Source: Thermogemmata fonticola (GTDB lineage Bacteria > Planctomycetota > Planctomycetia > Gemmatales > Gemmataceae). Taken from it: a stretch of DNA of 64,000 nt. The translations under genes and the position numbers were made by a program. The first letter of the stretch is position 1. The number at the start of each line of letters is the position of its first letter. Positions 46,555 to 56,540 of this stretch are shown here, piece by piece. The stretch is from NCBI RefSeq assembly GCF_013694095.1, contig NZ_JACEFB010000001.1, forward strand, positions 310,001 through 374,000, given 5' to 3'. The notes under the pieces were generated by a model. The model did no database searches, was not told the DNA's origin, and saw only the letters and a list, made by a program, of their open reading frames with translations.

Positions 46555-49500
46555 ATGAATCCGTCCGACCCCCGTCAGACCCCTGCATCCGAGACCAACA
46601 TTGCTGGCTTGTCCCCCTCTGAAACTCAATCCACTCCTGTGCAATCCTCCGCTCCCGCGATCGAGGTAGCCTCAGCCTCTTCTGCTTCCGCTTCCGAGTC
46701 ACCCCCAGAGACTGAGGTCGGCCCACTTCCCGACGAGTCTCCCCCTGCCGAGCCTACCACCTCCGGGACTTTGCCACGGATTCAGCATGATGCACCGCTT
46801 GCATCTGAACAGCAGGTCGCCTCTTCAGAAATGATGCGCAGCGAAGGCGAACTATCATCGAGAGCAGCCCCACCCCCTCAGGACGCAGAAAAACCGGAGA
46901 GGGAAAGTCCGCTGGGTTCGGGTTCTCACCAGATTGCGACAGCATCATCCGGGGTAGAGTCAGAACAGACGGCTTCATCGGTTTCGGGACTATCCGCTCC
47001 GATTGAGGCAGCAGCAGGCGATGCCCAAACGGAATCGGCGGTAGTCGGCACATCGACAGGGGACACCCCTAGCGCCGGAGAAACGGCTAGCTCTCCGCAG
47101 GAGACCACCCCGCCGGCGGCAGCGAAACCCTCGGCTCCCCCGCGGCCGCCGCAACCCATTCCGCCGGTTCCCGCCGCTCCCCAACCCCAAGACTTGGCCC
47201 GCATCGCACAGGACTTGCAAATCCGGAAGTCTCAGGTGGAGGCCGTGCTTCATCTGCTCGACGACCACTATGCCCCCCCCTTCATCGCACGTTACCGCAA
47301 GGATCAGACCGGGGGACTCAGCGAGGAGACGATCCGGCGCATTCAACAACGCGTGCGGCAACTCCGTGAGATCGCTGCCAGAAAACAAACGATCCTCCGC
47401 ACCCTTGCCTACCAGCATCGACTAACAGATGAACTCACGCAGGCCATCCTCCAGGCTGAGACGCTCAAGCGACTGGAGGACCTCTTTCTCCCCTTCCGTC
47501 ACAAGAAGAAGTCCCCTGCCAAGGAAGCGCGTGACAAGGGGTTGGGGCCAGTCGCTGAGGCTATTTGGAACCGGGATCCGGCCGTCACACAACTCGATGA
47601 AGTCCTAGCCGGTCTGGTAGACCCCGACAAATGGCTGCTCACCACGGAGGATGTGCTCAACGGTATCAAGGTCATCCTCAAGGAAATGATCGCAGAACAT
47701 GCGGATCTGCGGGGCGAAGTCCGCAAATTCCTGTGGGAGACCGGCGTGCTTGTCGCCCAACGGGTGGAGACACTCCCCGAAGGCAAAGGCAAAGAGTTTC
47801 AGCCCTATTTTGATTTCAAAGAAGCGGTTCGAGAAATACCTCCTCATCGCATTTTGGCCATCACACGGGGCGAGAGGCTCAATGTGCTCCGCGTCCGCAT
47901 TCAGGTCGATCGCGATCGTGTTGTCGAAATGGCGTTGCAGAAACTCTCTTGGGGCGATCATCCCCATCGGGAGTTACTTATGTCCCTAACGAGGACATCG
48001 GTCGAGGAAATATTGCTCCCTGCATTAGAGAAGGAAGTCCGTCGGGACCTCCTGCAACAAGCCCAAGAGCATGCCGTTCAAGTCTTTGCTCGAAACTTGC
48101 GCAGCCTGCTTCTGCAGCCCCCAGTTCGAGACAGGAAGGTCCTGGCGATCGATCCCAGCAATCGGAATATCACCACAGTGGTCGTGCTCAATGAAGACGG
48201 CGCTTATGTTGAAGATGCCGTGATCCATGTCAGCGGGCCGCATCGCAATCTCTTGGAGGCCAAACGGCGGCTGGAGCAACTCATCCGGCGACACCAACTC
48301 TCCCTGATTGCCATAGGAAACGGCGGGAATTACCGAGACGTTGAGGCTCTGGTATCTGAACTCATCGCCGACTTGGAACGCGGCGGTGGAAAAAGCCCCA
48401 TCCCCCCCACCCCAGCCGCTGCCCCTGCTCCGGTCAGCGCTCTGACCCAGCCTGCTGCCGTTCCTCCGCCAGTGGAAACTGTCTCGATCACTGAAGCCGG
48501 AACTCCCCTACCGGCACCGGAGGTGAGCCTCACTTCTGAGACGTTGGCTGTCCCTGCACCGTCTCCGCTTCCTTCTACGACTGCCATCCCTACTGTCGCT
48601 GTCCCTGCGAGGGAAACGACGTTCACCACCACGGTTACTGGTCTTGTGTCCACCGTCACCATGACGCCTTCCGAAACTGCTGGTGCTGCGAGCAGTGCAG
48701 AAGGACCCCCAGCTTCGGGGCCGTCTGCTGCGGTACAGCTCCCTTTGGAAGTGGCTCCCCTCCCAACGCCCTCTTCAGTGGCCATCGAATCTGTAGGACC
48801 CGCACCTGCAGAGGCAACAGTTACCACGACCACTACTATTTTGCCCATCAGCACTTCCGAAACGGCTTCAGCACCGGCGTCCCCGATCGATCTGGAAGGG
48901 CTGCCGCCGGCTCCCAAGGATTTGGCGTATGCCATTGTGATCGAAGCCGGTATTCGTGACTATGCTCATAGTCCGATTGCTCAGGAAGAATTTCCCACGC
49001 TGTCACCTTCTATTCGTGCTGCGATCAGTGTGGGCCGGCGCCTGCTCGATCCACTGGCAGAACTAGTGAAGATCGACCCGCATCACATCGGCGTCGGTCT
49101 CTACCAACATGACGTAAAACAGAAATACCTCAAGGAAGCATTGGAAGCCGTCGTGGTATCCAGCGTCAATGCTGTGGGAGTGGACCTCAATCGGGCAGAG
49201 TATCCCCTGCTGCGGTATGTCTGTGGTCTTAATCCCACTTTCGCTCGTGAAATCGTCACGCGCCGACGGCAGCACGGTCCCTTCCGGCATCGCCGTCAAC
49301 TGCTGGAAATCTCCGGCCTGACAGAAAAGCATTACATCCAAGCCGCAGGATTCGTCAAAATCTGTGATGGCGAGGAACCTCTGGATAGTTTGTGGATTCA
49401 TCCCGAGCAATACGATCTGGCCCGTGCGATTCTCGAAGCTTGCGGGTTGAGTCCCCTGGATTTACGCGATCCTCAGCGCGTATCGGAGTTAGCTTCGCGT

Positions 49501-50493
49501 CTGGCCAGCTTGTCCCCGGCGGACTTTGCCGCTCGCTTCCACGTGAGTGAAGGTACTGTCCGCGATGTCATGCATGCTCTGTCCCATCCCGGACGGGATC
49601 CACGGCTGGATCATCCCCCGCCCCTGTTCAAGCGAGGCATGCTCAAGTTCGAGGATATACGCCCCGGCATGGAATTGAGGGGTACTGTCTTGAATGTGGT
49701 GCCATTCGGGGCTTTCATCGACATTGGTTTGCGCGAGAGTGGCTTGGTCCACATCAGCCAGATGGCGAACCGTTACATCCACAGTCCTCATGAACTCGTT
49801 GCCGTGGGCGATGCTGTCACGGTTTGGGTGTTGGATGTCAAACCGGAAGTCCGCAAAATTTCGTTGACTATGATCCCGCCGGGGCAAGAGCGGCGCCCAC
49901 CCAGCCCGGCCGGGGAAAGGCAGTCCTCTGCGCGCGAACGGCGAGAAGGACCGGTTCTGCCTCCGCCGTCTCGCGGTGGCACACCCCGCGGGTCCCGCTC
50001 CGAGCGTAGCCGTCGAGGACAAGGCGCCCCGTCCGGCAGCCGATCTGCCTCCGCGGAAGGGGCCACTCGCCCAGGACGCGGCCCACGCCCCACGCCCTCT
50101 GCTTCCCAGCAACCGATCTCGTCTGAAGCCCCTCGAACGGGGGAATCTGCCGGAAGCGCTCCTCCTGCTCCTGCTGCCACGGCAGAATCCACTCCTGCAC
50201 GGGCTTCTCAAACTCCGAGCAGTGCGCCACCTCCGCCGCCAGCCCCTCGACGTACCCCCAGACCCCCCGCTAAACCCAAACCCCTCCCGATACTCCCGCC
50301 AGAAAAGCGATCCGGTAAGGCTGCCTTGAACACTTTTGCTGAGCTTGCAGCCTTCTTCAAACAACAGGAGGAAAGCGCGTCTGCTGGAGAAGAAAAGAGT
50401 TCTGATGTGGTAACAGCTAGCTCTCCGGCAGGAGAAGCGACAAGTCCGCCCGCATCAAGCCCGGCGGAACATCCGCCGCCGTACCCGACCTGA
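46555..50493 (+). CDS. tex: Tex family S1 RNA-binding protein with long low-complexity extensions
   Basis: A 1312-residue Tex protein; ordinary Tex proteins are about 720-780 residues. Residues 1-210 are a Ser/Pro/Glu/Thr/Ala-rich extension. The conserved body begins near 213 (IAQDLQIRKSQVEAVLHLLDD) with the YRKDQTGGLSEE signature, helical region and YqgF domain (DRKVLAIDPSNRN). About residues 612-784 are an Ala/Pro/Thr/Val-rich insert inside the YqgF domain, after SELIADLERGG. The domain resumes at AYAIVIEAGIRDYAHS. The helix-hairpin-helix region (about 870-950) and an S1 domain (about 1030-1105, ending near SLTM) follow, then a 200-residue Pro/Ser/Arg-rich tail. Tex proteins contribute to transcription and nucleic-acid binding. 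ftsH lies 133 bp downstream. Confidence 0.92.
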   Translation: MNPSDPRQTPASETNIAGLSPSETQSTPVQSSAPAIEVASASSASASESPPETEVGPLPDESPPAEPTTSGTLPRIQHDAPLASEQQVASSEMMRSEGELSSRAAPPPQDAEKPERESPLGSGSHQIATASSGVESEQTASSVSGLSAPIEAAAGDAQTESAVVGTSTGDTPSAGETASSPQETTPPAAAKPSAPPRPPQPIPPVPAAPQPQDLARIAQDLQIRKSQVEAVLHLLDDHYAPPFIARYRKDQTGGLSEETIRRIQQRVRQLREIAARKQTILRTLAYQHRLTDELTQAILQAETLKRLEDLFLPFRHKKKSPAKEARDKGLGPVAEAIWNRDPAVTQLDEVLAGLVDPDKWLLTTEDVLNGIKVILKEMIAEHADLRGEVRKFLWETGVLVAQRVETLPEGKGKEFQPYFDFKEAVREIPPHRILAITRGERLNVLRVRIQVDRDRVVEMALQKLSWGDHPHRELLMSLTRTSVEEILLPALEKEVRRDLLQQAQEHAVQVFARNLRSLLLQPPVRDRKVLAIDPSNRNITTVVVLNEDGAYVEDAVIHVSGPHRNLLEAKRRLEQLIRRHQLSLIAIGNGGNYRDVEALVSELIADLERGGGKSPIPPTPAAAPAPVSALTQPAAVPPPVETVSITEAGTPLPAPEVSLTSETLAVPAPSPLPSTTAIPTVAVPARETTFTTTVTGLVSTVTMTPSETAGAASSAEGPPASGPSAAVQLPLEVAPLPTPSSVAIESVGPAPAEATVTTTTTILPISTSETASAPASPIDLEGLPPAPKDLAYAIVIEAGIRDYAHSPIAQEEFPTLSPSIRAAISVGRRLLDPLAELVKIDPHHIGVGLYQHDVKQKYLKEALEAVVVSSVNAVGVDLNRAEYPLLRYVCGLNPTFAREIVTRRRQHGPFRHRRQLLEISGLTEKHYIQAAGFVKICDGEEPLDSLWIHPEQYDLARAILEACGLSPLDLRDPQRVSELASRLASLSPADFAARFHVSEGTVRDVMHALSHPGRDPRLDHPPPLFKRGMLKFEDIRPGMELRGTVLNVVPFGAFIDIGLRESGLVHISQMANRYIHSPHELVAVGDAVTVWVLDVKPEVRKISLTMIPPGQERRPPSPAGERQSSARERREGPVLPPPSRGGTPRGSRSERSRRGQGAPSGSRSASAEGATRPGRGPRPTPSASQQPISSEAPRTGESAGSAPPAPAATAESTPARASQTPSSAPPPPPAPRRTPRPPAKPKPLPILPPEKRSGKAALNTFAELAAFFKQQEESASAGEEKSSDVVTASSPAGEATSPPASSPAEHPPPYPT

Positions 50494-52940: not shown

Positions 52941-55900
52941 TCACTCCCACAAGGGTAGCCATTCGACAACATCGTAGCGGGAGTGGGGATTGGTCAGAAT
53001 ATGATGGCAGGCTTTTTGATAGATAGGAATGCAACTCAACAGGGAGGCTACCAGCTCTTCTAACCGCAGCCCCCCGTGTTCGCGGCAAAACAGGATGTCC
53101 GTTGCCGGGTAGGGAACCTCGAGGCACAGGCTTCCAGGTACAATTTGCTGGAGGTGAGCAGCCAATTCGCGACCAGCCTGACTGCTAGGAACCACGAGGT
53201 ACGTCTGCTCTTCGCCATCGCCAGCACCGAGGATGGGGGACGCCAACCGGTGATAGTCCTGGAGCCGTTGGGAGAGTGTCATGGCAGGCGAGGATTCCTG
53301 ACGAATGACCACCTCCGCAACATCCTGGGTGGGCAGAAGGTTCGCCAAAAAGGCGATCGTCTGATCGATGAGGGGCACAGCCAGAAGGCGGTACAGATCA
53401 GCATGAACGCGGCTGATCGAGAGCAGTCCGCCCCGCGGGGCTAAAACCAACTGGCCTAAGGCATGTTCCAAGCGATTCAATTCCGACTCGCTACAATGTG
53501 CCAATAAATGCTCAATCGCCTGTTCCCAATGCTTCTCACCTTCGGGGAGCAAAATACGTACCGTAGCTTTCTCGGCGATTGCCTCGGGATTAAAGGGGGT
53601 TTTTTCACTGTCGGATCCAGAGGGGACATTACGGGTCCAGCGGGACGCGAGCCGTCCAGGGGTATCCGCCGAGGCTTCCGAACGTGCCTCTCCTTGCAAT
53701 CGACGCACAATGTCTCGTAAACGCAGGCGGACGACATCGATATCCCGACGCTTCTCTTGCAAACGAACCTGAAGCAGGCGGAAGAAACGAGCCGTCGCCT
53801 CCCAAGCGCCTTCTCGGAGGCGTAAGTGGACATATTGCCGGTGTTGTTCCACGAAATGCCGTAGGGCACGGCTTCCACGTCCGCCCAGCAAGCTGAACGT
53901 CCCGTTACCCTCTTCACAAGCTTCGTAAGCATCTCGAAGATCGACGAAGGCTTGTCGCAATTGCCGCGACAGTTGATCAAGGTGTTGCTCGGCTAACAAG
54001 GCTTGTTTTTCACACCAAGACTCGATCTGGCGAAGCCCGCTTTCGACGGCGGCCAAGCGCCGCCCTGGACGTTCGGCCAGTGCTTCGACCACAGCGGAGA
54101 CTTCATTGGCCCAGGCTTCGGCTTGTCGACGGGCGGCATCCTCCAGAGTGCGATGCCAACGGTTACGTATAACAGCCGATTCCGGCAGGTGCGAAGAATG
54201 CCAACCTACCCATTCCCGTGTTTGTTCCCAGACTTGGCGTGCCCAAGCAGTTCCTTGCCCCGCTTTTGCCGCGGCAGACCATTGCTGGTCCAATTCCTGC
54301 AGCCACCGCTTCAGGGATTCGGCTATACCGGCTACTTCTGCCACGGGTGATCGCACTTCCCCCTTCTCTGGTTGTTCGTTTGTGCTCAGGGCTAACCGCT
54401 CATCGTTTGTGATCCGTGCCACGGTTTGGGCAATCGCTTCTTCACACTCCGGCTCAGCCTCTTCCACCCAGTGGTACACCAACTGAGCGCACAACCGTTG
54501 AGCCGCTGAGCGCAACAACAGTCCGCGGGGATACCAGAGACTATACACTCCGAAGGTCCGAAATGGGGTGCGTCCTGGGGCTGCCGGACGGCTGCGATGA
54601 GCGTCTAATGCCGGGCCAAGCAAGGTGGTCAGCTCATTGCTGACATAGGAAGCTAAACGTGACAAGCAGCGGCGAAAAGCTGCACCGCTCCGTTCTTCCA
54701 TCGCCAGCAGATAGGTGGCTGTGAAGGGTAAGCCACGGCCTTCCACCCGCGGTCCATCAGGCCCACCGTATTGGGCGCTGAAGACTACATCAGGATCGGC
54801 ATAATGATGGAGTTCGGTCAACCCAGCGACCACATTCGCCAACTCATGATCTGGGGAAGCGGGGTCGGAAGGAGCAGCCAAGTAAACGAAAGCTACGACA
54901 CGCGCTTGGGATCCTCCCACAACACGTTGCAAAACGCGTTGCACTGAGTATCCCACATCGAGGAGCATTCCGCCGCTTCCCCCGGCCAAGCTCGCAAAAA
55001 TCAGGACCTGAGGGACAGTATCCCGGACATTGAGACCCGTTTGTGCACTCGTTTGCGCTAGGGATTCCGGATGTGTTGCGATTTGGATTTCCCGCTTGAG
55101 TCGAGCCACAAATCGGAGGTAATGGTCGCAAAAAGCTAACCGTCCGAAGGCACGCACGCCCCCTGCTTGCAAGTTCCGTGGAATGCTGTAAAGCTTTTCC
55201 CGAGGCAACCAATCCAAAATTTGCTCCAACTGCCGCCGGCGATATTGGGTCACGGGTTGTAAGGGAGCTAACAGGATTTCGTCAGAGTGTAAAGCGGCCT
55301 CGGCAGGAGCAGACAAAGCCTTTTGGCTAGCCTCCGGATCACAGTCGAGATAGAGGAACCTTAGCGCCGGAAGCTGTGAGGCATCCCCTAAGCGATCAGT
55401 CAGTCGGCGGCGGATTTCCTGTAAAGCACGTCGGCCAAAACTGCCTATGCCGAGCATCAGGCTGGGACGCAGAACACCCGCCTCGACCTGTGGCTCGGTG
55501 GCTTCCAACAGACGCTCGTCGCTACGGATGAGACTCAGATGGCGAGCTGCACTGGCAGGGACTACCGACACGGCGGCGTCACTTCGACCTGTAGTACTTC
55601 CGATTGGCATTCCAGGGGTGGGAGTGCTGCTGTCCGGAAGTGAGAGCTGGGCAAAAGAGGGAACCGAAAAGTTGCCTAAACTGTAGCTATCCGACGAAGG
55701 CGTCGAATACTGCGCTCGTCCAAGGGTCGCCAAGGTCCGGATAAAAGCGGTGCAACTGGGGAAGCGCTGATCCGGGTCTTTGGCCAATGCACGCCCGACG
55801 ATGTCCCGCTCCGCTTCGGGCAGCATGGACAAATCGGGAGGAGCGGACATGTGTTGCAACGCTAACTGGCGGATATTCTTGCCATCAAACGGCCGACGCC

Positions 55901-56540
55901 CGGTCAATAACTCTACATACACGATCGCAAGGCTGTACTGGTCCGTGTGCTTGCTGATCTTGTTGGCGAAAGTCTCCGGAGCCGCGTAAAGGGGTGTAAC
56001 TCCGCCGAGTAACCCGGAGATACTGGATCGTTCGAGGGTTTTAACGAGGCCAAAGTCGGCTACTTTCACCCGGTCGGCCACGAGGAACAAATTGCGGGGT
56101 TTGACGTCGAGATGCTGTAAACCATGCTTTTCAATCAGATAGTCCAGCCCTACTGCGGCATCATCCAGATAGGCCAACAGTTTGTCCCGCGGGATACCAG
56201 GCAAACCGCGCTGTTGATACTCCAAGAAACACTCATGCAGGTTCTGGTCGGCCAACTCCATGACGATAATCAATTCGCCATCAATTTCCTGAATCTGCTC
56301 GATGGAGAGAAGAAAAGGATGGCGGACTTGTTTGACCCGCTCCAAGGCCTTGAGTTCCTGCCGAGCACGGCCATCCTCCACCTCCAAGTCGTTCAGGTTA
56401 CCGTACACGAACTTAATAGCCTTGAGTATTCCCCCAGGCGCCAAGCATTTCCAGACCTCGCCAAACCCCCCGTTGCCGATGGGTTCGAGGAGGCGATACC
56501 CCGGCAGAGGTTCGGTGTCGGGTTCGCGTAGCCAGTTCAT
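52941..56540 (-). CDS. Ser/Thr protein kinase fused to a tubulin-like (Tubulin_2-type) domain
   Basis: A 1199-residue soluble protein. Residues 12-275 are a Hanks-type kinase: glycine loop IGNGGFG 21-27, catalytic K43, HLDVKPRN 143-150 with D145, DFG 162-164 and APE 188-190. All catalytic residues are present. A Ser/Pro-rich linker (276-358) follows. From about 360 a tubulin-like domain begins: LMLGIGSFGRRALQEIRRRL at 361-380, the nucleotide-fold strand LRFLYLDCDPE, and the glycine loop FASLAGGSGGM at 515-525. The usual loop reads S-G-G-T-G-S-G, so this copy is one residue shorter. The remaining 650 residues are mostly helical and charged. No transmembrane segment. It is transcribed alone, convergent with ftsH. 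GTP binding and polymer formation are unproven. Confidence 0.85.
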   Translation of the reverse strand: MNWLREPDTEPLPGYRLLEPIGNGGFGEVWKCLAPGGILKAIKFVYGNLNDLEVEDGRARQELKALERVKQVRHPFLLSIEQIQEIDGELIIVMELADQNLHECFLEYQQRGLPGIPRDKLLAYLDDAAVGLDYLIEKHGLQHLDVKPRNLFLVADRVKVADFGLVKTLERSSISGLLGGVTPLYAAPETFANKISKHTDQYSLAIVYVELLTGRRPFDGKNIRQLALQHMSAPPDLSMLPEAERDIVGRALAKDPDQRFPSCTAFIRTLATLGRAQYSTPSSDSYSLGNFSVPSFAQLSLPDSSTPTPGMPIGSTTGRSDAAVSVVPASAARHLSLIRSDERLLEATEPQVEAGVLRPSLMLGIGSFGRRALQEIRRRLTDRLGDASQLPALRFLYLDCDPEASQKALSAPAEAALHSDEILLAPLQPVTQYRRRQLEQILDWLPREKLYSIPRNLQAGGVRAFGRLAFCDHYLRFVARLKREIQIATHPESLAQTSAQTGLNVRDTVPQVLIFASLAGGSGGMLLDVGYSVQRVLQRVVGGSQARVVAFVYLAAPSDPASPDHELANVVAGLTELHHYADPDVVFSAQYGGPDGPRVEGRGLPFTATYLLAMEERSGAAFRRCLSRLASYVSNELTTLLGPALDAHRSRPAAPGRTPFRTFGVYSLWYPRGLLLRSAAQRLCAQLVYHWVEEAEPECEEAIAQTVARITNDERLALSTNEQPEKGEVRSPVAEVAGIAESLKRWLQELDQQWSAAAKAGQGTAWARQVWEQTREWVGWHSSHLPESAVIRNRWHRTLEDAARRQAEAWANEVSAVVEALAERPGRRLAAVESGLRQIESWCEKQALLAEQHLDQLSRQLRQAFVDLRDAYEACEEGNGTFSLLGGRGSRALRHFVEQHRQYVHLRLREGAWEATARFFRLLQVRLQEKRRDIDVVRLRLRDIVRRLQGEARSEASADTPGRLASRWTRNVPSGSDSEKTPFNPEAIAEKATVRILLPEGEKHWEQAIEHLLAHCSESELNRLEHALGQLVLAPRGGLLSISRVHADLYRLLAVPLIDQTIAFLANLLPTQDVAEVVIRQESSPAMTLSQRLQDYHRLASPILGAGDGEEQTYLVVPSSQAGRELAAHLQQIVPGSLCLEVPYPATDILFCREHGGLRLEELVASLLSCIPIYQKACHHILTNPHSRYDVVEWLPLWE

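Follow-up and report, generated by a model that had tools for sequence, protein, structure and literature searches.

A Hanks-type kinase fused to an FtsZl1-type tubulin domain in Gemmataceae, with a shortened glycine loop in one paralogue

Introduction

The FtsZl1 family of tubulin-like proteins (PF13809) was treated in 2010 by Makarova and Koonin, who recognised a planctomycete clade, found the T6-H7 elements hard to identify and described a long C-terminal extension (PMC2875224). Planctomycete proteins combining a kinase with a tubulin-like domain are likewise already in print (PMC9871819, 2023; PMC11032199, 2024). In the passages that deal with them, these proteins have the same architecture as the one considered here, and kinases that are purely cytoplasmic are said to be joined to a tubulin-like domain more often than to any other (PMC11032199).

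How FtsZ-less planctomycete cells are organised and how they divide is an open problem; ftsZ is said to have been lost from the Planctomycetota. We analysed a kinase-tubulin fusion gene of Thermogemmata fonticola within a 64,000-nucleotide stretch of contig NZ_JACEFB010000001.1 (the window), for which a preliminary description had been made from the letters of the DNA. Since the architecture is in print, its novelty is modest. What this analysis adds is a loss in the T4 glycine loop that is fixed in one paralogue, together with the scpA and c-di-GMP contexts of its relatives. Among open-licence papers, we found no earlier report of the fixed T4 loss or of the scpA neighbourhood.

Results

The gene (52941..56540, minus strand, as are all features below) is a single ATG-started frame of 1199 codons, here called paralogue A. 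Residues 15-260 (55761..56498) match PF00069 with E 4.2e-32 and have the features of a Hanks-type kinase, namely the catalytic lysine K43, D145 in an HLD motif, N150 and the DFG motif at 162-164, which starts with D162. After a Ser-rich, poorly conserved linker (residues 276-354, 55479..55715) comes the Tubulin_2 (FtsZl1) domain (residues 361-688, 54477..55460), which matches PF13809 over profile positions 1-355 of 356 with E 3.4e-38 and 132 bits against a cut-off of 27. Both matches widely exceed the curated cut-offs, and chance is rejected as their source. The intact kinase and tubulin-like domain in one frame thus lie where the preliminary description had put them. Its 650-residue helical tail is not one block: about 300 residues (roughly 689-985, 53586..54476) are mostly helical and fast-evolving, and lead into a C-terminal domain that is better conserved, spans about 200 residues (990-1199, 52944..53573) and has the sequence PHSRYDV at 1185-1191, part of a PHxRxDVxxW motif found family-wide. 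Identity to the nearest relative is highest in the kinase (92%), followed by the tubulin domain (79%), the C-terminal domain (60%) and the helical region (47%).

AlphaFold models were built from eight sequences; pLDDT is low for a number of loops and towards the C-terminal part. Modelled alone (361 aa, pTM 0.67, mean pLDDT 65), the tubulin domain gives tubulin-superfamily proteins for all 50 matches listed, by both Foldseek (E down to 2e-5) and VIA-align, with VIA Z-scores of 14-16 to tubulins, CetZ and FtsZ over about 200 residues, to be read with the modest confidence of the model. The predicted fold therefore agrees with the tubulin assignment first proposed. In a model of residues 345-1199 (mean pLDDT 58), the first 312 residues also match tubulins by VIA-align; the plain Foldseek result is weaker and mixes tubulins with coiled-coil and dynamin matches. 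Many of the aligned ranges stop near tubulin residue 263, others scattering further with higher rmsd, which indicates recognition of the GTPase half but no clear recognition of the intermediate domain. A sequence-profile search of PDB chains found no tubulin, so homology rests on the Pfam match and the fold. The identity of the fusion protein is secure; its mechanism we infer.

The source genome (Gemmataceae, 4.8 Mb in 61 contigs, 97% complete, 52 kinase-domain matches) encodes three Tubulin_2 proteins, each fused to a kinase: the window copy (A) and two others (B and C). In a tree of 45 tubulin domains, A forms a clade with support 100/99, and a sister group holds sets B and C within Gemmataceae; sequences from the class's other families make up a further set, P. 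In the kinase tree, all 39 fused kinases likewise fall into a single clade (99/95) that excludes 21 other kinases encoded by the source genome. Groups A, B and P appear again in this tree, whereas C does not form a clade, and the exact root is unsure owing to the long branches of the outgroup kinases. Because the two trees largely agree, the simplest history is a single fusion that preceded the duplications, after which three old paralogues were kept in Gemmataceae. The catalytic kinase residues are retained in the paralogues.

This long retention of each paralogue within one clade bears on a possible role in anti-phage defence or genetic conflict, for which the fusion might be considered because PADLOC kinase models (MAD6, PD-T4-6) match it. 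We regard such a role as highly improbable, given that the PADLOC matches centre mainly on the kinase domain and carry no curated cut-off, and that the NCBIfam MAD6 model scores 76.7 bits against a cut-off of 460. Viral contigs searched for relatives of the fusion yielded none.

The tubulin domain of the window protein has a T1-like loop, GIGSFG (residues 364-369, 55434..55451), corresponding to the GxGxxG kept in most of the domains compared, and a T4-like glycine loop, AGGSGGM (residues 519-525, 54966..54986). The latter had been noted as one residue short, and comparison of 78 Tubulin_2 domains (15 from paralogue A and 63 others) bears this out for the whole paralogue: the stretch ending in the loop is 14 residues long in each of the 15 A members, typically with GGSGGM, versus 15 residues in 62 of the 63 other domains, typically with GGTGSGM, the lone exception being one B copy. 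A loop of the usual length (GGTGSG), a common FtsZl1 feature that lies outside the profile-based definition of the family, is thus missing from paralogue A. A D-x-D after strand 2 and a GxRxxGRxA segment, which we take to be the counterparts of FtsZ loops T2 and T3, are conserved in all three paralogues. The short T4 reads as a single ancestral loss, fixed clade-wide in paralogue A across Gemmataceae, and nucleotide binding may be altered or lost in this paralogue.

The closest named relative is the Gemmataceae MAG SKYG125 (66% identity in the best segment), in line with the planctomycete origin suggested from the sequence. Tubulin_2 occurs in 50 of 61 Gemmataceae genomes (35 of 39 genera), mostly in two to four copies, and in only 24 of 294 genomes sampled across Planctomycetota. 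The recurrence of the same fusion in dozens of other genomes rules out an assembly error. In line with the lack of FtsZ that the preliminary description gave for most planctomycetes studied, a PF00091 search of the source genome gave no match; PF00091 is also missing from 60 of 61 Gemmataceae, where the lone, weak match sits inside a relative's fusion protein, and from 291 of the 294 sampled planctomycetes. The three remaining genomes, all of genus g118, encode a free-standing PF00091 protein (loci L024, L025 and L026); the one at L026:976-2295 has 439 aa and the motifs FGAGGGTGGGSA and IIIDNE, and is FtsZ/CetZ-like.

These distributions weaken the division role that had been suggested. A cytomotive filament serving division or budding, with the kinase as its regulator, would suit a genome without FtsZ and a predicted tubulin fold, and a list of proteins for division and the cytoskeleton in Gemmata massiliana includes FtsZl1 (PMC4672568). 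However, far fewer planctomycetes have Tubulin_2 than lack PF00091, and five Gemmataceae genomes that are at least 90% complete have neither, so the fusion is no general substitute for FtsZ. With the T4 loop shortened in the window copy as well, a division filament seems to us distinctly unlikely. The main text of an essentiality study of Planctopirus limnophila names neither tubulin nor kinase.

Paralogue A in the window is divergent from surE and convergent with ftsH, a neighbour that recurs in several genera; no conserved co-directional partner gene was seen among its neighbourhoods. The window also encodes, at 46555-50493, a Tex-like protein of 1312 aa that combines an S1 domain with a ComEA-like stretch and has long Pro/Ala/Ser-rich segments both internally and at either end.

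The surE and ftsH neighbours differ from the vWA operon that is typical of FtsZl1, though not universal, and the shared neighbour clusters scanned around fused genes comprise GGDEF, FHA-EAL, AAA-like, scpA and others, with no vWA among them. This matters for the possibility that the fusion is a component of the FtsZl1/vWA machinery that Makarova and Koonin proposed for membrane remodelling. The domain family is shared, and the three planctomycete Tubulin_2 genes without a fused kinase that we examined (L091, L096 and L103) do lie near vWA genes, in agreement with the first description of FtsZl1, but in view of the fused neighbourhoods and of a hydropathy scan of the window protein in which no membrane span was seen, we consider membership unlikely. 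Two of the unfused loci have further features. At L103 (G274:C65:51000-69000), the genes near Tubulin_2 include vWA and those for a replication initiator (RPA) and a coupling protein of the TrwB type, a setting that is plasmid-like or conjugative; at L096:8926-13209, a protein with NACHT and FGE-sulfatase domains and a reverse transcriptase gene lie near the Tubulin_2/vWA pair.

Paralogues B and C stand in tandem in several genera, with B then followed by scpA. When gene positions were compared in the 45 genomes with both genes, scpA lay near a Tubulin_2 gene in 11, each of a different genus, and in five of the six loci read (L070, L072, L076, L087 and L108) scpA comes directly after paralogue B, at a distance of 13-77 bp. 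The fusion might accordingly be a chromosome segregation or condensation kinase working with SMC-ScpAB, yet the adjacency concerns B rather than the window paralogue, may be inherited rather than functional, and is not found in the source genome, where scpA is on another contig; we think this reading rather unlikely.

In other families, the fusion stands in an operon-like row with AAA-like ATPase, FHA-EAL and GGDEF genes (for example, L094:3977-11001), FHA-EAL being present in seven of eight such loci and GGDEF in most. The AAA-like and fusion genes overlap by 4 bp in L094 and L095. The AAA-like protein has no Pfam match, and in the PDB it weakly matches AAA chains of the spastin type; as an exclusive partner it was rejected, its relatives occurring in 53 of 294 genomes, many without Tubulin_2. 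Phosphothreonine is the ligand of FHA domains, which suggests a link from the kinase to c-di-GMP through the FHA-EAL neighbours. A neighbour of this kind in Pirellula staleyi was pointed out by a reviewer of the 2010 paper (PMC2875224). In the source genome, a search for an FHA-EAL partner returned only matches of FHA-domain size.

Discussion

The explanation that we tentatively favour, at somewhat short of even confidence, is a soluble Hanks-type kinase controlled by oligomeric assembly of its FtsZl1-type tubulin domain and helical region, with paralogue A altered and with signalling or chromosome organisation as the output. GTP binding and nucleotide-dependent assembly would be properties of B, of C and of the copies that occur singly in other families, and assembly would bring the kinases together for trans-phosphorylation. 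Paralogue A would have lost normal GTP cycling; its part could be constitutive or regulatory, perhaps within assemblies shared with B and C. Among relatives, the FHA-EAL and GGDEF partners point to signalling as a likely output, and scpA beside B to chromosome organisation; a cytokinetic ring is not the likely output. A more elaborate version, in which two nucleotide-competent paralogues and one pseudo-GTPase form a three-part cytoskeletal scaffold that phosphorylates and thereby coordinates how the chromosome is organised in FtsZ-less Gemmataceae cells, appears very unlikely to us.

These fusions are family-wide and multi-copy, and put a kinase and a tubulin fold in one protein. The coexistence of full-length and shortened GTP loops is a natural contrast through which nucleotide dependence can be tested directly, and the neighbourhoods with scpA and with c-di-GMP genes offer concrete candidate pathways.

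Compared with known systems, the window protein resembles FtsZ, CetZ and tubulins in its predicted GTPase-domain fold, its GxGxxG T1 loop and its glycine-rich T4 loop, with about 10-17% identity in the structurally matched part; the T6 motif and intermediate domain of canonical FtsZ and tubulin are not evident in it. The relevant passages of the two papers on the kinase-tubulin architecture (PMC9871819, PMC11032199) say nothing of paralogues, of a shortened loop or of scpA and FHA-EAL as neighbours. With FtsZl1 (PMC2875224), the window protein shares its domain family and a long C-terminal extension; it differs in that its genes, when fused, stand without an identified vWA gene, that paralogue A has a shortened T4 loop, and that an N-terminal kinase is part of the same chain.
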